Source: Akkermansia muciniphila (lineage in GTDB: Bacteria; Verrucomicrobiota; Verrucomicrobiia; Limisphaerales; UBA9464). From it: 33,000 nucleotides of DNA. A model generated the notes under the pieces. The model searched no databases. It was not told where the DNA came from and saw only the letters and a list, made by a program, of their open reading frames with translations. Location of the stretch: NCBI GenBank assembly GCA_945898055.1, contig CAMDGV010000049.1, positions 1 through 33,000 of the forward strand, written 5' to 3'. Shown piece by piece: positions 4,727 to 13,328 of this stretch (its first letter is position 1; the number at the start of each line of letters is the position of its first letter). The position numbers and the translations under genes are program-made.

Positions 4727-4990
4727 CTACTTCACTTTCCGTAAGTGCTCGGGGAAATCGCGTTCGTGTCGCTTCAACAACGCAAGCGCCTCTCCCGTCA
4801 TGACATAGATCTTCCCTCGCACTTCCTTCCGCTCGCCGTGGGCAAGACCGCCGCGACAAAAGCCCGAATACAGACAGCGGGCCATGCCTTGGAAGAGCTC
4901 CTGATAGGGCTCCCACGCCGTCGCGAAGATCATCTTCTCGTCGGCGCTGAACGCGCCAATTAACCCGTTGTCCGGAACCAGCCCCTTCTC
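4727..4990 (-). pseudogene. 5'-truncated gene remnant, conserved C-terminal segment
   Basis: On the minus strand a continuous frame reads LVPDNGLIGAFSADEKMIFATAWEP, then YQELFQGMARCLYSGF, GGLAHGERKEVRGKIYVM and LLKRHERDFPEHL to a stop at 4727. The text looks like a genuine protein C-terminus (balanced composition, no low complexity), but no plausible start or upstream domain exists before the AT-rich stretch at 5019. An internal ATG at 4933 would give only 68 residues. I infer the 3' end of a larger secreted or hydrolase-type gene whose 5' part was lost when the block at its right was inserted or deleted. Family not recognised with certainty. Confidence 0.55.
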
Positions 4991-5018
4991 CCCTCCACGT
5001 AAAAAAGAATTCTCTAGG
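4988..5018 (+). repeat. imperfect direct repeat, left copy
   Basis: The sequence from CTCCCCTCCACGT through A6G and AATT to CTAGG recurs at 7147-7179 in the same orientation. I count 28 identical positions of 31 plus two single-base gaps. The left copy sits between the 5'-truncated remnant and the promoter region of the rsbR-like gene. Together the two copies bracket the whole partner-switching module. This could be a recombination footprint or an attachment-like sequence. Confidence 0.65.
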
Positions 5019-5077
5019 ACAATATTTTTGAATTATGCAGTCTAATTAATAACGCAAATAATCAGAAGAATTATACT
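5019..5077 (+). promoter_or_regulatory. AT-rich promoter and leader of the rsbR-rsbT module
   Basis: The 59 bases before the rsbR-like ATG are sharply AT-rich compared with both flanks and include TTGAAT at about 5029 and AT-rich hexamers downstream of it. An AGAAGA purine run at 5064-5069 lies eight bases before the ATG and is a credible ribosome-binding site, unusual in this window, where most genes lack one. The exact -35/-10 pair is not certain. Confidence 0.45.
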
Positions 5078-6370
5078 ATGACAGCAAACCTCTCGCCTTT
5101 CTCGTCTACAGCCGATGCTGCCCTCATCGAAGCCATTCAGCGCTCGATGGGTGTGATCGAGTTCAAGCCAGATGGCACGATTGTGCGGGCCAACGACATC
5201 TTCCTGAAGACCCTCGGCTACGCCCTCGACGAGATCCAAGGCCGCCATCACCGAATGTTAGTGAATCCCGACGAGGCTGCCGGGCGCGATTACCAGCACT
5301 TTTGGACGGCTCTGTCCTCAGGGGCAATCAAGTCTGGCCGGTTCGATCGCATAGGAAAAGACGGTCGCATCGTATGGATGGAGGCAATCTACAACCCCAT
5401 CCTTGATGAGCAGGGCAAAGTGGTTGCGGTCATCAAGATCGCCACCGACATCACCGAGACCACACGATCGAGTTTCGACAACGCCGGCAAGATTGCGGCC
5501 ATCACGCGTTCAATGGGGATGATTGAGTTTGAGCCCGATGGCACGATCCTTAAGGCCAACGACTTGTTTCTGAATATTTTGGGCTACAGCGAAAAGGAGA
5601 TCCAAAACCGGCATCATCGGCTTTTCATCAAGCCAGAAGAGGAAAATTCAGCAGCCTATCCCGCTTTCTGGAAGTCCTTGGCCGCCGGTTCTGTGCAGTC
5701 AGGTCAGTTTGAGCGGCTCAACAAGGACGGGCGATCCGTATGGCTCGAGGCCACCTACAACCCGATCTTCGATTCTAAGGGCCGAACCGTGAAAGTGGTG
5801 AAGTTCGCGATCGACATCACCGAGAAGTTCATGGCCGCCCAGCGGATGGCCGAGAAGCTCCGTGAGCTTGAAGAGGCTATGGCCCAATTGCGCGAAGCCG
5901 AGCGCGTGCGCGAGGAACTCGACCGCACCTTGCTGGCGATGGCCACACCGATCACCCCGATTTGGGACGAAATTCTGCTGCTACCCTTGGTTGGTGTGGT
6001 GGACTCCACCCGCACCGCCGATATCATGCGCAAAAGCCTCAACCGGATCAGCGAGACCCGCTCGAAGGTGTTCATTCTCGACATCAGCGGTGTGGCATCG
6101 GTGGACACCGCTGTCGCCGACCAATTGATCCAGATCACCAAGGCTACGCGCCTGATGGGCTGCGAAACCCTCATTTCGGGGCTGTCGCCTGCGATCGCGC
6201 ACACGATGGTGGACTTGGGTATTAATGTGGGTTGTGTGCGTACCACCGCCAACTTGCGCGATGCCTTCAAGATCGCGTTGAGTCAGGTGGGCTCGCTCGC
6301 CGGGGTCGCGCAAGACAAGAGCGGTGACGCACGAGGCGGTGGCCAAAACGCTCAAGCGGCAGGATCGTGA
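5078..6370 (+). CDS. RsbR-type stressosome/partner-switching protein (PAS-PAS-STAS)
   Basis: This 430-residue cytoplasmic sensor has two tandem, mutually similar PAS domains (about 15-128 and 136-250). Both carry the pattern PDGTI..AND.FL..LGY..EIQ.RHHR..., FW..L..G and KDGR.VW.EA.YNPI, followed by a DIT end, as in PAS domains of BdlA-like and chemoreceptor proteins. A charged helical linker (250-290) leads to a C-terminal STAS domain (296-400). In the STAS domain FILDISGVASVDTAVA aligns with the RsbR/RsbS phosphorylation segment, so Thr344 corresponds to RsbR Thr171, while the second site (SGLSP, Ser367) has Ser where RsbR has Thr205. RsbR proteins scaffold stressosomes and release RsbT on stress. 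The rsbT-like gene overlaps or directly follows, but no RsbS gene is present. The ligand of the PAS pair is unknown. The tail after residue 405 is Gly/Ala-rich. Confidence 0.88.
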   Translation: MTANLSPFSSTADAALIEAIQRSMGVIEFKPDGTIVRANDIFLKTLGYALDEIQGRHHRMLVNPDEAAGRDYQHFWTALSSGAIKSGRFDRIGKDGRIVWMEAIYNPILDEQGKVVAVIKIATDITETTRSSFDNAGKIAAITRSMGMIEFEPDGTILKANDLFLNILGYSEKEIQNRHHRLFIKPEEENSAAYPAFWKSLAAGSVQSGQFERLNKDGRSVWLEATYNPIFDSKGRTVKVVKFAIDITEKFMAAQRMAEKLRELEEAMAQLREAERVREELDRTLLAMATPITPIWDEILLLPLVGVVDSTRTADIMRKSLNRISETRSKVFILDISGVASVDTAVADQLIQITKATRLMGCETLISGLSPAIAHTMVDLGINVGCVRTTANLRDAFKIALSQVGSLAGVAQDKSGDARGGGQNAQAAGS

Positions 6371-6866
6371 ATCGCGTGATGTGCCGTGGCCTGGCGACCG
6401 GCCCGTGCCTCGAACAGGAATGACCTCCCCAAAGCAGCCGACGGATCTGGAGTTTTCCATCCGGCGCCAAAGCGACATCACCCTCGCGGTGACGGCCATT
6501 TTGCAGTCCGGTCTTCCGGACGTATTTCCCGCAGACGAGCACAGCAGGGTCGGCATCATCGTCTCAGAGCTTGGCACCAACATCCTGAAGTACGCTGGGC
6601 ACGGCGTGGTTCGGGTGCGGTACCTAGCAACTGATGGCCGGAACGGCATGCGCGTCGTGGCGGAGGACCACGGGCCCGGTATTGCGGACTTGGAAGCCGC
6701 ACTCAAAAATGGTTTCAGCACAGGTGGAACCCTGGGGTTGGGGCTGCCGGCGGTCCGCCGCCTCACCGATACCCTGAACATCACCTGCCCTCCGGGTGGC
6801 GGCACTCGGGTCGAGGCGATTCGTTGGTTTAGACGCCCTCTGCGCGTCTCTGATGACCGCGCCTAG
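6324..6866 (+). CDS. RsbT-type anti-sigma/serine kinase (HATPase_c)
   Basis: The product is a GHKL-fold serine/threonine kinase of the RsbT/RsbW class. Signatures are the N-box VSELGTNILKYAGHG (Glu82, Asn86), the G1 box EDHGPGIADLE and the G2 region GGTLGLGLPAVRRLTD, which match RsbT more closely than RsbW. RsbT phosphorylates STAS proteins and, once released, activates downstream phosphatases. The GTG at 6324 overlaps the rsbR-like gene by 47 bases. The ATG at 6420 gives a 148-residue protein closer to the usual RsbT length (about 130-140), and similarity begins just after it, so the later start is plausible on family grounds. Stop is TAG at 6864-6866, and the same frame continues into a phosphatase remnant. 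Confidence 0.88.
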   Translation: MTHEAVAKTLKRQDRESRDVPWPGDRPVPRTGMTSPKQPTDLEFSIRRQSDITLAVTAILQSGLPDVFPADEHSRVGIIVSELGTNILKYAGHGVVRVRYLATDGRNGMRVVAEDHGPGIADLEAALKNGFSTGGTLGLGLPAVRRLTDTLNITCPPGGGTRVEAIRWFRRPLRVSDDRA

Positions 6867-7103
6867 GCCCCCGAGACTGAGGGGTATGTATTGCTGGTGC
6901 ATCTGGAAGGCACCGGCCATGGAGCCAAGGCAGATCATGCGTCTTGTTGCATCGTCGGGGGCATCGGACAAGAGATTGCCAAGTGGCCGCTACAATCGAG
7001 CGCAAAAATGATCTTGACCCTTCTGGACGCCTGCCAAAACGCAGCAACCGGTACTGTCGGCGCAGCCATCGCCTTGGCCATGATCGACCGCCTCAGGTGC
7101 TGA
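6867..7103 (+). pseudogene. truncated RsbX/SpoIIE-type (PP2C-like) phosphatase remnant
   Basis: Directly after the rsbT TAG, and in the same frame, 78 codons read to a TGA at 7101-7103. They contain VLLVHLEGTGHGAKADHAS and, further on, LTLLDACQNAATGTVGAAIALAMIDRL. This resembles the first third of RsbX-like SpoIIE phosphatases: a D-G-x-GHG-x-x-A motif, then L..CH..L.GTRGA.....ID. The expected Asp before the GHG motif is Glu-Gly-Thr here, and everything after the first metal-site region is missing. No ATG exists; TTG at 6891 is the only conventional alternative start. It most likely marks the lost third gene of an rsbR-(S)-T-X operon. Similarity was judged by eye. Confidence 0.5.
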
Positions 7104-7146
7104 CTGAAGAACCTCAGTACGATGTCGCACGTGCAGCCTTTCCACT

Positions 7147-7179
7147 CTCCGCTCCACGTCAAAAAAGCAATTTCCTAGG
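7147..7179 (+). repeat. imperfect direct repeat, right copy
   Basis: This is the right-hand partner of 4988-5018 (CTCCGCTCCACGTC, then A6GC, AATT and CTAGG) and differs by three substitutions and two single-base insertions. It contains the stop codon of the antiporter gene (minus strand, 7175-7177). So if an insertion occurred here, it used the very end of the antiporter gene. Confidence 0.65.
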
Positions 7180-8437
7180 CGGATTCGCCCTCGAGAGAAC
7201 CTAAACGGCGTGAGTGCCTTCCGTAGCCCCATTCGAAGAGGGGGGTGGCCATGAGTGTCGTGACAATTGCCATCACCACCATGATGGAAAAAAGAGAAGG
7301 TCCGATGAGGCCTTTCTGCAAACCGATATTGAGAATGATCAATTCCATCAGCCCCCTCGAATTCATCAGTGTTCCTACGGCGAACGCGGTCCGGTTGTCT
7401 TCGCCGTTGAGACGTGCTGCAGCCCAGCAGGCAACCCCTTTACCGACTATGGATGCAGCTAGCACCACCAAGGCGACCCCGAAAAGACTCCACGAATTAA
7501 CCAAATCTAGACGCGTTCGAAGTCCGGAAAATGTGAAAAACATCGGCAGAAGAAAAACCACGGCGAACGGCTCGACTTGCCGTTGCAATTCTTGAGTTAG
7601 ACGTCCACGCGGCAGGGCCGCTCCCAGCAGAAATCCGCCGAAAACAGCATGGATTCCAATCGAATCCGTAGCCCAAGCGGCGGCGGCAAAGAGACTGAGC
7701 AGAAGAGCTAAATGAGTTTGGGTCAAACCACCTGATTGCTCGACGGAACGGCCTAAAGGACGGAGCAGACGCCGCCCGGCGGTGAGGATCAGAAGGGCAT
7801 ACGTGACTCCACCGACGATGGCTTTGACCGCGACCAAAGGTCCGGCCCCAAAGCTAGCCAGCACGATAGCCAAGACGCACCAAGCAGCGGCATCGTCGAT
7901 GGCACCAGCGGCGAGAGCCAATGTTCCGAGGGGGGTGCCGCTAAGCCCCCTTTCCTTGATGATACGAGCCAGCATGGGAAAGGCGGTGATAGAGATGGCC
8001 GCACCCATAAACAGAGTGGCTTCGAACTGGGTTGTTTGAGCAGCAAATAAGCCAGATTGGCGCATCAACCATGGGGTCAAGAGGGCGGCTAAGGCGAAGG
8101 GCACAGCCATTCCTGCGATAGAGACCGAAGCGGCACTCCGAAGGCGGCTATGAAAAAGATCCAACCGGAACTCGGCACCTACCAAAAACATATAGAGACC
8201 GACGCCCAGTTGGGACCCAACGTAGAGAATTTTAAGCGACTCTTGGGGGAAAATACTTTTTTGAAAATCGGGAGAAAGTAAACCGAGCAAGGAAGGACCC
8301 AGTGCTACTCCGGCGATCATTTCGCAAACTACTTGGGGTTGACCGAGGTATCGTCCAAGCCAACCCGCTAATCGGCAGAAGAGCAGGATAAGGAGCATCT
8401 GCGAGAAAAAGGTCACGGAAAGCTGCTCGTTACTCAT
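7175..8437 (-). CDS. cation:proton antiporter, CPA2 (KefB/NapA-like) family
   Basis: A 420-residue integral inner-membrane protein with about twelve hydrophobic segments spread over its whole length. The first contains the family pattern GRYLGQPQVVCEMIAGVALGPSLLG, and AAGAIDDAAAW (around residue 185) holds the paired Asp of electrogenic Na+/H+ or K+/H+ antiporters in the CPA2 superfamily. There is no C-terminal TrkA-N/RCK domain, so the protein is the transporter core only. Ion specificity cannot be read from sequence. The role would be pH and cation homeostasis. The gene is single, its stop codon lies within the right direct repeat, and a 327-bp spacer without recognisable genes separates it from the glycogen cluster. 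Confidence 0.9.
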   Translation of the reverse strand: MSNEQLSVTFFSQMLLILLFCRLAGWLGRYLGQPQVVCEMIAGVALGPSLLGLLSPDFQKSIFPQESLKILYVGSQLGVGLYMFLVGAEFRLDLFHSRLRSAASVSIAGMAVPFALAALLTPWLMRQSGLFAAQTTQFEATLFMGAAISITAFPMLARIIKERGLSGTPLGTLALAAGAIDDAAAWCVLAIVLASFGAGPLVAVKAIVGGVTYALLILTAGRRLLRPLGRSVEQSGGLTQTHLALLLSLFAAAAWATDSIGIHAVFGGFLLGAALPRGRLTQELQRQVEPFAVVFLLPMFFTFSGLRTRLDLVNSWSLFGVALVVLAASIVGKGVACWAAARLNGEDNRTAFAVGTLMNSRGLMELIILNIGLQKGLIGPSLFSIMVVMAIVTTLMATPLFEWGYGRHSRRLGSLEGESA

Positions 8438-10399: not shown

Positions 10400-11547
10400 T
10401 CGGACTGAATTTTACTGCTCTGAGAGGCACTGTCCGTCTCCCAAGAAATCGATCTCGATTGCAAGGTGAACGACGATACCACGGAAACGCGCCCCGAAGT
10501 GGCTTCCGGCAGAGCTCCATTTCCTGCCGAAGACATCGTTTGCCCATACAAAACCTCTTCCAAGAGTGAAGCCGGGATTCCTGTTTCATTTTGCCCTAGA
10601 CGGCAGGATAAAACTGCGACCCGATCCGGATTGACCCTGACCCTGAGAGGGACTCGTTCGGTCTCAGTAGACTCAAAAGAATCCGGACCCGTTAAAACGG
10701 GTGACGAGCAGGCGAGTGAAATCCAGTTTCCTGCATCTTCCACTCCAATTTCAGCGAAATAACCCACACCGCCTAAATTGACCGCGACAAACATAAATTC
10801 TACATCCGACGGCAAAGGTCCACTGGCAATAACCGTGCCGCTCAATGAAACACTGTGCACCCGCCACAAAAGGCTCCAACGCCCAACCACACTAGGACTT
10901 AATTTACTCCAGTAGAGCATCAGACACCGAGGATCACGCGCTACTAGCCAAACGGGGCCAGCCCATCTCGGCCGCTCCTCGAGAAATTTCTCAGAGACAT
11001 CTGCAGTTAAAGCGAGGGCCTCAGGGAGGGAATTCAAACCGATTTGTTCCTCCTCAAAATCTCCTTCGAACAGAATGGGGATCCGCCGCAAACCACTCAC
11101 TCGACACCCCGGAATCTCAGGAAACCTTGACTCCATGGGCAATTCGACTCTCGCCCCAATCTTCTCTCTGATTCGGCTTTGGGGAACTTTGACTTTCAGC
11201 CGCAACTCTCCCGAAACCCTTCTCAAATTTTCCGCCACTTTTTTCTTCGCTAAACCCACTCCTTGCAACAAGGGCCCTCGTGGAAACCATTCCTTCAAGT
11301 TTTTTCCTGATCCCTTGGCGAGGGCCAAATTCCTCTTGGCTTGCGTGAACTTCCGAAGGCCCTCACTCCGATAGCGACCACGTCGACGCGGCGAACTCTG
11401 AGTCGGTTGCGGAACCGGATCTGGACCAAAGACTCGAGGCGGGTGAGTGGCGAGCAGACGAGCATCTCGCAATCGCAGCGAAGCGGCAAAGCCCGGTTTG
11501 ATGAACAAATCGATTAACGGCAACCCGTTCAGTGGGTGATGTTGCAT
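10396..11547 (-). CDS. DUF4912 domain protein coupled to the branching enzyme
   Basis: The 383-residue protein has a basic N-terminal third (about 30-130: RRRGR, KKKVAENLRR) that is probably disordered. A DUF4912-like core follows at about 185-290, starting WLVARDPRCLMLYW, which is the typical opening of this family, and ending in a glycine-rich strand before a Ser/Thr-rich tail. DUF4912 genes are frequently found directly upstream of GH57 branching enzymes, and here the two genes share the ATGA. The function is unknown. The domain resembles a beta-sandwich that might bind carbohydrate or position the enzyme, which is inference. No signal peptide is seen, so it is probably cytoplasmic. Confidence 0.8.
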   Translation of the reverse strand: MQHHPLNGLPLIDLFIKPGFAASLRLRDARLLATHPPRVFGPDPVPQPTQSSPRRRGRYRSEGLRKFTQAKRNLALAKGSGKNLKEWFPRGPLLQGVGLAKKKVAENLRRVSGELRLKVKVPQSRIREKIGARVELPMESRFPEIPGCRVSGLRRIPILFEGDFEEEQIGLNSLPEALALTADVSEKFLEERPRWAGPVWLVARDPRCLMLYWSKLSPSVVGRWSLLWRVHSVSLSGTVIASGPLPSDVEFMFVAVNLGGVGYFAEIGVEDAGNWISLACSSPVLTGPDSFESTETERVPLRVRVNPDRVAVLSCRLGQNETGIPASLLEEVLYGQTMSSAGNGALPEATSGRVSVVSSFTLQSRSISWETDSASQSSKIQSE

Positions 11548-11608
11548 CCTTGAAATCGAGTATAAATAGTAGCAAACTGAGTTAAGATAATTAACGACGA
11601 CTCAACGA

Positions 11609-12424
11609 TCAAATCGCGGCATTGGGTTTGCGTAGTTCGACCATCACCCCTGAAAAAACAGGGGTTCGATGGTCTGCGGGAACCTCCGACATATTAGTAA
11701 AAAAGTCACCCAACCAGTTAAGCGCTGGAAGGGCAAACCAGCAGTAGAGCTTTCGCACCACTGTCAATAGGGCATGCACTTGCGGACGCTCCGTCTGAAT
11801 GAGTTCAGCCACACAATAATGCATCAAGTGAAACGATCCTCGCGGACCAGCGACGATCTTGGAGGCTCTCAGAATTTCAAATCCTGCTGCTTTAGCTTCC
11901 CACTCCAATCCTTTAGCTGTCCAACGACGGAAATCATCCGGGCATCCGTGCTCAATGAAGAGACCGTGAGTCGTCACCAACATACGTCCACCCGGCTTTA
12001 AAACGCGGAGTCCTTCACGCAAATAAGCCCCAGGATCAGGAACATGTTCCAAAACTTGGGTGGACAGTACCGCATCAAAGGTACCCTCAAACACAGGCAC
12101 AGAACCATCCGAACGTAGAGTTAGCGTAACGTGGGGGCCCGGGGTCACATCGGCAGCCTCATACCGAGTGAGAGCACGAAACAAACTGCGATACGGTGCC
12201 CCTCCACTGCCGTAATCCAGCAAATGCCCCTCCACCGACTCGGCAAACCGACGAATGACCGGGAGAAGATCTTTGAAAATTAGATAATCGAGGTCAGTCA
12301 ACGGCGGATTCATTCGCCGCCGTAAATACAGATCGTCATTCAGCACCGACGAAAGTGCTTCAACTGAGTCAGAACTAGGCTCAGGTCGCTGGCTTTCGAT
12401 AGTGGGCATGCAGACTGTTTCCAA
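11609..12424 (-). CDS. class I SAM-dependent methyltransferase
   Basis: A 271-residue Rossmann-fold methyltransferase. Motif I is HLLDYGSGGAPYRSLF (about 68-83), and the region around FDAVLSTQVLEHVPDPGAYLREGLRVLKPGGRMLVTTHG carries the motif IV-V pattern of the methyltransf_11 group. The C-terminus has a hydrophobic helix (LYCWFALPALNWLGDF) but no clear membrane anchor. Start is uncertain: ATG 12424 overlaps the upstream methyltransferase by 44 bases, and ATG 12409 reduces this to 29. Either way the two are co-transcribed and probably modify the same class of substrate, plausibly glycans or lipids given the neighbouring glycosyltransferase and glycogen genes. Substrate unknown. Confidence 0.85.
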   Translation of the reverse strand: METVCMPTIESQRPEPSSDSVEALSSVLNDDLYLRRRMNPPLTDLDYLIFKDLLPVIRRFAESVEGHLLDYGSGGAPYRSLFRALTRYEAADVTPGPHVTLTLRSDGSVPVFEGTFDAVLSTQVLEHVPDPGAYLREGLRVLKPGGRMLVTTHGLFIEHGCPDDFRRWTAKGLEWEAKAAGFEILRASKIVAGPRGSFHLMHYCVAELIQTERPQVHALLTVVRKLYCWFALPALNWLGDFFTNMSEVPADHRTPVFSGVMVELRKPNAAI

Positions 12425-13328
12425 ATCGCAGATAATGTCGAGCCAGCGAAAGTCGGTAGAGAAAGGTCAGTACTTCTCTGACCAACCAGGACGAATAACG
12501 GTCAGGTCGCTTGAGGATTAGATTAAAGTGACTCTGCAAACGCAACGTCTCGCGTATTTGTACACCGCGAAGAAGATCTGCGGTTAAATCAACCATCTCT
12601 AGCCCCAAAGTGGTACCCAAGTGCCGTAAATCTTGAGCACGCCAACGACTTAAATGATGAGGGGGCCACTGTCTCGGATCCAAAGTAAACCAACGATAAA
12701 TACCGGTGCCATTAGGCACGGCGATGGCTAAATGCCCCCCCGGTTTCACCAAGCGAGCCGCGCCCTTAAAGAATCCCACAGGATCCGATAAATGCTCCAT
12801 TACTTCGAAGGCGGTGACCAAATCAAAGCGATTCTCCGGACGCGATGCAGCATAAGACTCCGCCGTGCAACAAAGAACTTCATGCCCCCGACTCCGAGCC
12901 TTCTCCACCGCCTGTTCATTAAGATCCAATCCGTAGGTCTTAATCCCTGCCGCCCTCGCTTTATCCAGAAAACGACCCGCACCACAGCCTAGGTCCATCA
13001 ACGTCTTAGCCCCCGTCTGTCGGGCAAGATCCAGAGCGCGCAAGAAGGATGGGCTATTTTCAGGATAATAGCCTGGAATCTGATTCTCGAGATCTCGATA
13101 AAAGGCATTATTACCCGGCAGAATTGGATCGAAGAACTGAAAGCCACAGACGAGGCATTGTCGGTGTTCAATATTTCCAACCCCGGCAAAAGAAGCCATC
13201 GCTTCGGTGGTTAAGAGAACTCCCTCGACCGCAAAAAGGCACACGATTTCTGCCGGTGATATCCTATCCAGACAGCGGGCTTCAGCTGAGCCACAAACAA
13301 GGCATTGAACTTTTTTTGGCAAGGCCAT
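12381..13328 (-). CDS. zinc-ribbon class I SAM-dependent methyltransferase
   Basis: The 315-residue protein opens with a zinc-binding segment (Cys9-x2-Cys12 and Cys58-x2-Cys61), as in many sugar or polyketide C-/O-methyltransferases. The SAM fold follows: motif I LMDLGCGAGRFLDKA at about 110-124, acidic loop TYGLDLN, and FEVMEHLSDPVGFFKGAARLVKPGGHLAIAVPN. HHLSRW near residue 225 is typical of methyltransf_23-type enzymes and their close relatives. The gene overlaps its downstream partner by at least 29 bases and lies 134 bp after the secG stop on the same strand. The pairing of a zinc-ribbon methyltransferase with a second methyltransferase suggests surface-glycan or secondary-metabolite modification. 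Confidence 0.86.
   Translation of the reverse strand: MALPKKVQCLVCGSAEARCLDRISPAEIVCLFAVEGVLLTTEAMASFAGVGNIEHRQCLVCGFQFFDPILPGNNAFYRDLENQIPGYYPENSPSFLRALDLARQTGAKTLMDLGCGAGRFLDKARAAGIKTYGLDLNEQAVEKARSRGHEVLCCTAESYAASRPENRFDLVTAFEVMEHLSDPVGFFKGAARLVKPGGHLAIAVPNGTGIYRWFTLDPRQWPPHHLSRWRAQDLRHLGTTLGLEMVDLTADLLRGVQIRETLRLQSHFNLILKRPDRYSSWLVREVLTFLYRLSLARHYLRFGNSLHAHYRKPAT

Follow-up and report, generated by a model that had tools for sequence, protein, structure and literature searches.

How did a pair of regulatory genes come to lie between two copies of a short repeat, with a truncated gene on one side and an antiporter gene on the other? The question is raised by a stretch of DNA (the window) that comprises the first 33,000 nucleotides (nt) of contig CAMDGV010000049.1 in the Akkermansia muciniphila assembly GCA_945898055.1, the genome referred to here as G000. 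Its RsbR-RsbT module consists of a gene for an RsbR-like PAS-PAS-STAS protein of 430 amino acids (5078..6370, + strand; Pfam PAS_3, PAS_9 and STAS) and a gene for an RsbT-like HATPase protein of 180 amino acids (6324..6866, + strand; Pfam HATPase_c and HATPase_c_2). An initial annotation, made from the letters of the window, proposed that direct repeats bracket this module and that it resembles a cassette gained as a unit. The repeat is a motif of ~37 bp whose identity as the right end (the oriIS side) of IS91-family elements is well supported. Ends of this kind number about a hundred or more in G000, and the RsbR-RsbT pair, as cargo, is one of many segments lying between them.

The link to the IS91 family came from the surroundings of transposase genes. 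A search for Y2_Tnp in 59 genomes (G000 and a comparison set of 58 relatives) found the family in 16, and 30 loci were fetched. Seven of these loci have a recognisable C-terminal tail, and in five of the seven the motif lies 186-303 nt past the stop codon on the coding strand, with scores of 27.5, 14.7, 9.8, 9.3 and 8.4 bits (E 1e-7 to 0.13; weak matches past Y2_Tnp genes were counted for their position and strand). Of the other two, one lacks the motif and the contig of the second ends too early. Because the motif follows Y2_Tnp genes on their coding strand, we take it to be the right end of these elements. The frame in locus L300 matches Pfam Y2_Tnp with E 9e-12.

The motif copies have a fixed right edge and a variable left end, the long copies carrying variable lengths of the 3′ region of the insertion sequence; the C-terminus of an IS91-family transposase can be read from the longest left parts, and in G000 C-terminal transposase remnants stand left of motif copies on contigs C11 and C23. 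When flanks were compared, the DNA on the left was shared up to the motif and the DNA on the right was unrelated, the exception being tandem hairpin units, in which both sides were shared. These units, ~150-200 bp long, contain a hairpin-like repeat (..AAGACGC../..GCGTCTTTGCGTGAG..), each end in the motif, and occur in L091, L092, L133, L134 and L140 (C31, C14 and C4). Judged by eye, the copies displayed have left edges that bear no relation to the reverse complement of the motif, that is, there are no terminal inverted repeats. Neighbouring copies are mostly direct, the exceptions being pairs in inverted orientation at C19, C1 and C23, separated by 124-244 bp. Positions +1 to +3 after the core favour R, T and W, unlike GAAC (GAAC/CAAG in IS801), and T stands at +2 in 86 of 92 G000 copies and in 86 of 93 others. 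The junctions, compared with relatives, leave 3-12 nt unaccounted for, and R-T-W is a putative target preference.

Several other identities were considered and rejected. The inverted pair at C19 suggested an inverted-repeat MITE (miniature inverted-repeat transposable element); the units are single-ended and most close pairs are direct. The end of a DruA/ISAs1-like element beside the C11 and C90 copies was likewise set aside, as the motif is also found without this element and more is explained by the IS91 link. A similar one-sided pattern would result from 5′ truncation of the retroelement type; what lies upstream here, however, is a Y2 transposase gene. An adaptor or linker artefact was dismissed because the subfamilies differ by genome, and a frame left of a C41 copy, presumably primase-like, was judged to be a neighbouring gene. 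As to the DNA around two of these copies, a DruA-like (PF14236) frame adjoins those on C11 and C90 (L105 243-698 and 973-1569 (-), L088 3293-4047), where a further piece, which we take to be from an ISAs1-like transposase, has no Pfam match; the C11 and C90 loci (L105 and L088) have an 884-bp match in common, at 89%. Elsewhere in L088 (G000:C90), at about 11136-12790, reading frames repeat one short peptide, as a CRISPR (clustered regularly interspaced short palindromic repeats) array read in frame would.

The commonest form of the motif is a bare unit. Among 114 copies extracted from other genomes, 107 were measurable, 74 of which share one starting point, ~37 bp from the right edge; another 29 copies are longer, two are cut by a contig end and two are of other kinds. 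An internal half-site, like the motif's own end, is present in 27 of the 29 longer copies, lying exactly 38 nt before the right edge in 26, and is missing from 72 of the 74 bare copies. Because the longer copies carry this half-site 38 nt before the edge and the bare copies mostly do not, the bare unit is, as judged from sequence, the DNA between two origin-like half-sites. In G000 a half-site was found 36-38 nt before the edge in 14 of 138 copies by a loose match. Termination at GAAC alone was weakened as an account of the left edge, given that the G000 subfamily has no GAAC there; the internal half-site fits better.

With a 24-base pattern and ≤3 mismatches, G000 contains 84 copies (96 when A or T is allowed at one position), and a reversed control gave none. 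At the stringency of the first pattern, seven of the 58 relatives have 1 to 6 copies and 51 have none. The motif profile called 138 sites in the stretches fetched around G000 copies, a figure that is not a whole-genome count. An exact degenerate pattern searched against GTDB returned 82 stretches, 80 of which were analysed; 69 are titled Verrucomicrobiota or members of it, and the remainder Acidobacteria, Planctomycetota, Acidimicrobiia or unnamed bacterium, where binning errors are possible. The same pattern had no exact match among IMG/VR viral contigs. DUF1905 gene segments together with motif copies, 97-99% identical, occur in three soil bins assigned to different phyla (L235, L256 and L304), a distribution that reflects either recent transfer or misbinning.

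Neighbouring copies tend to run in the same direction. Across 116 G000 sites, neighbours 1-5 kb apart share a direction in 26 cases and oppose each other in two; for all neighbours less than 5 kb apart the ratio is 37:8, and for those more than 5 kb apart 9:12. The 80 other stretches gave 47 same-direction and four opposite neighbours. The genes between same-direction copies are ordinary ones of diverse kinds, including sulfatases, a GDSL lipase, an M20 peptidase, a DUF1549/DUF1553 protein, MurJ, a photolyase, Vsr, AAA_21 with RloB, HlyD and RsbR-RsbT; when 40 interval proteins picked from 120 listed were searched against Pfam, five had no family. The largest open reading frame (ORF; ≥150 amino acids) is oriented like the motif in 49 of 63 intervals, and the genes left of the motif, counted over all sites, are in the same and opposite orientations 41:14 in other genomes and 41:26 in G000. 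The initial annotation had held that the repeat flanking other cargo would support a cassette, and many cargoes are so flanked, in the same orientation, in G000 and in other genomes. The AAA_21 ATPase and RloB pair lies between motif copies at L086 4839-6750 (G000:C64) in a layout that recalls defence gene pairs. A separate repeat, with matches of 270-410 bp at 91-94%, occurs near several motif copies, in L122, L086, L083 and L128.

At the window locus the two copies differ greatly in quality. The right copy (7148..7180, + strand; aligned at 7148-7177, the unit extending to about 7180) reaches 32.0 bits (E 3.3e-9) when scored with a profile built from G000 copies, the window's own copies being left out, compared with 12.4 bits for the best of 100 dinucleotide-shuffled windows (best score per window taken), and it matches the pattern with 0 mismatches. 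The left copy (4986..5016, + strand) scores 5.1 bits with an ungapped-seed profile, not significant alone, and 9.7 bits (E 0.03) with an indel-allowing profile, a score bettered by two of 100 shuffled windows. BLAST of one copy against the other returned just a 20-bp piece at 90%, which at least 5 of 100 shuffles equal. We regard the left copy as real because 11 of the 13 non-self G000 matches to the 104-bp stretch that contains it are motif copies and because homology of the adjoining gene, gene1, ends at window 4980; going by its letters, it is the same motif in decay. The bracketing repeats of the initial annotation thus stand at full strength on the right and as a weak, decayed copy on the left.

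Other features of the locus were described correctly. The gene1 fragment (4727..4980, - strand), recognised by its reading frame and by homology in relatives, has its 5′ end cut by the left motif copy; 10 of the 18 other genus genomes have gene1 homology, confined to window 4745-4980 and ending at 4980 in all 10, in agreement with the claim that the left border is a truncated gene. The enclosed 2.1 kb carries partner-switching genes according to Pfam (a PAS-PAS-STAS protein and a HATPase_c protein). Since the space between the two copies contains no recombinase, mobilisation would be in trans. The antiporter gene (7175..8437, - strand; the name is that of the initial annotation) does have its stop codon within the right motif copy. 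It has DNA homologues in 14 of the 18 other genus genomes and is essentially full length, its C-terminus having been compared in 14 loci. The left flank of the right copy (6870..7147, + strand) holds short reading frames, known from the ORF list, and is a possible gene remnant; its last 23 nt are part of a 52-bp match, at 89%, to C23:44092-44143. RsbR has DNA homologues in two of the 18 genomes (G003 and G005) and RsbT in one (G003), and in these fragmented assemblies the RsbR homologues sit on a different contig from the antiporter. Homologues of the pair also exist apart from the repeat, the G003 module having no adjoining motif at E 0.1. An empty site with a single repeat next to the antiporter, which the initial annotation had expected of strains lacking the module, was not found in relatives. 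Taken together, these features give the locus the look of a mosaic, in which two right ends form the joints between three segments.

Breakpoints were sought by comparing the flanks of 18 sites with seven relatives, the six best-matching sites then being compared at length (C13:6205, C33 and C27 were set aside because their matches were short). No match spanned both flanks at any of the 18 sites, and about half of the sites had no close flank match in the seven relatives. At C13:31041, C11, C86 and C12, synteny blocks of 2.8-6.6 kb end 0-8 nt from the right edge of the motif by profile call, or 3-12 nt after the core by eye; at C61 and C41 the blocks are short (383 and 278 bp) and stop at the left edge of the motif. 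Beyond the C13 break synteny picks up again, with ~323 bp in G000 in place of ~1380 bp in G008, an apparent 1.4-kb deletion that breaks a 598-amino-acid ORF that is whole in G008. The G008 DNA across the C11 break has its G000 counterpart on C8, about 0.5 kb away from a different motif copy, and the G001 DNA across the C86 break has no match in G000.

We think it probable that one-ended rolling-circle transposition of IS91-family right ends explains the repeat, the arrays and the module. A transposase acting in trans would nick at the right edge of the motif and peel off DNA leftward; the round would stop at the next origin-like site, and the strand would be inserted elsewhere. A stop at the internal half-site would produce the bare 37-bp unit, and a unit between half-sites is what would be expected of a round that runs from the end to the internal site. 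A stop at an earlier motif copy would presumably produce a gene-motif cassette, and a stop at a chance site is the third possibility. Repeated rounds would build same-direction arrays of motif-bordered segments, with neighbours deleted or truncated. At the window locus, the module and the right copy were probably placed together beside the antiporter, and the left border would be an older, decayed copy that had earlier cut gene1. The cassette of the initial annotation was in this sense right in spirit, given the many cargoes flanked in one orientation, and we infer that the RsbR-RsbT module moved as a unit. More tentatively, bare ~37-bp IS91-type origins may be the portable borders of a rolling-circle gene-cassette system: a round begun at one copy would end at the previous one, so that any gene between two copies would become a mobile cassette. 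Such a system may produce arrays like those of integrons, but with no integron, throughout Verrucomicrobiota and possibly in further phyla.

The module could instead be resident, two one-ended right-end insertions with local deletion having landed on either side of it. Such insertions are seen at C13, where the motif-ended ~323-bp segment replaces ~1380 bp and breaks an ORF, and at the left window copy, which cuts gene1; moreover, conserved backbone stands at the right edge of the motif in the four long loci, so that, for the left copy, the module would itself count as backbone. We nevertheless hold this to be rather unlikely, since compact same-direction segments recur far above the random-orientation expectation and the scarce RsbR and RsbT homologues of the genus lie on other contigs than the antiporter. 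Homologous recombination is inefficient with short imperfect repeats such as one of 37 bp. That recombination between dispersed copies shuffled the segments, transposition having only spread the ends, is accordingly improbable, and shared left flanks beside unrelated right flanks fit transposition better. The displaced C11 block, ~0.5 kb from a motif copy on C8, would suit it, and the IS801 paper prefers reorganisation for most natural IS801 fragments. As a main agent, the homologous capture offered by the initial annotation gives way to one-ended rolling-circle transposition, which an IS91-family right end fits.

Two further explanations concern the nature of the motif. Integron cassettes are compact genes in tandem and in the same direction, each with a short conserved border site, and recombine at a GTT crossover triplet. 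The array layout, compact genes and single orientation seen here are what the attachment site of a recombinase of the tyrosine or serine type would give, and the initial annotation had called the repeats attachment-like; physically, however, the motif forms the 3′ end of IS91-family elements, and GTT follows the core in just 23 of 92 G000 copies and 31 of 93 others, so that we consider such a site very improbable. An ordinary intergenic motif (a promoter, a terminator or a 5′ leader RNA) would agree with the same-strand gene starts often found within ~120 nt downstream in other genomes, and is in our estimate the least credible explanation. No Rfam family matched at gathering score in 10 loci (62,887 bases), the motif cuts genes, and by eye the L260 copy seems to replace the missing 5′ end of the homologue of a G000 gene. 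Because the motif lies at synteny breakpoints and is absent (≤3 mismatches) from 51 of the 58 relatives, its behaviour is not that of an ordinary terminator or regulator site; the initial annotation had counted a widespread ordinary motif against its cassette, and the repeat is widespread without behaving as one.

Several observations weigh against one-ended transposition as the explanation, or against the evidence for it. G000 has a Y2_Tnp fragment only, covering 44 of 183 positions, and no active enzyme is seen there now; among the 59 genomes the motif (≤3 mismatches) occurs in 8, Y2_Tnp in 16 and both in 3, which is no clear co-occurrence, and the shorter L298 frame has no Pfam match. The orientation signal is weak in G000: a split made by hand has the largest ORF oriented like the motif in 28 of 29 intervals in other genomes and in 21 of 34 in G000, and the genes right of the motif, over all sites, are same to opposite 41:18 in other genomes and 43:47, as at random, in G000. 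Sites fall inside a long reading frame in 45 of 131 cases in named genomes and 27 of 139 in G000. The displaced C11 block has its motif copy near the far end, not the end facing the break. The DUF1905 segments of the three soil bins do not diverge at the motif itself, L235 and L256 parting 29 nt to its right and L304 27 nt to its left. No identical cassette was caught at two places, and the sources are mostly fragmentary metagenome bins with short contigs.

If the proposed mechanism is true, a transposon family known mainly as a carrier of resistance and virulence genes would, in uncultured environmental bacteria, also assemble genes into same-direction arrays, with a border of only ~37 bp. 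Chromosome shuffling in these lineages would then have a concrete agent, there would be a simple sequence handle for finding such arrays, and the rule of starting at one origin and stopping at the previous one would be a testable account of bacterial rolling-circle gene capture. We found no description of arrays of solo IS91 right ends in titles and the starts of abstracts in the open PMC literature, a search that excludes subscription papers and preprints, and the bare-end arrays appear to be a variant, so far undescribed, of a process already known.

The closest precedent is IS801 of Pseudomonas syringae, an IS91-family element with a fixed and essential right end and miniature fragments of variable left extent; it moves adjacent DNA, its one-ended events make deletions, and some plasmids apparently arose from transposition that terminated exactly where another IS801 copy ends (PMC3189936, PMC6354349). 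The present motif shares the fixed right end, the variable left end and the deletions, and these accounts supply a precedent for stopping at another copy. Unlike the miniature IS801 products of 229-679 nt reported there, its commonest unit is ~37 bp, present in about a hundred or more copies and bordering same-direction gene arrays. ISCR elements have an HUH transposase gene and distinct oriIS and terIS ends, and adjacent genes are thought to be mobilised (PMC13393415); those described there carry their own transposase gene, whereas the cargo here is bordered by solo ends and, in the sample, is mostly metabolic. Helitrons are eukaryotic transposons that capture and mobilise gene fragments (PMC4778049), and the likeness drawn here is that of gene capture. 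The arrays resemble integron cassettes in their tandem, same-direction, compact genes, each with a short conserved border, and differ from them in having no conserved GTT crossover, in using an IS91-family site, and in the scattering of copies over the genome.

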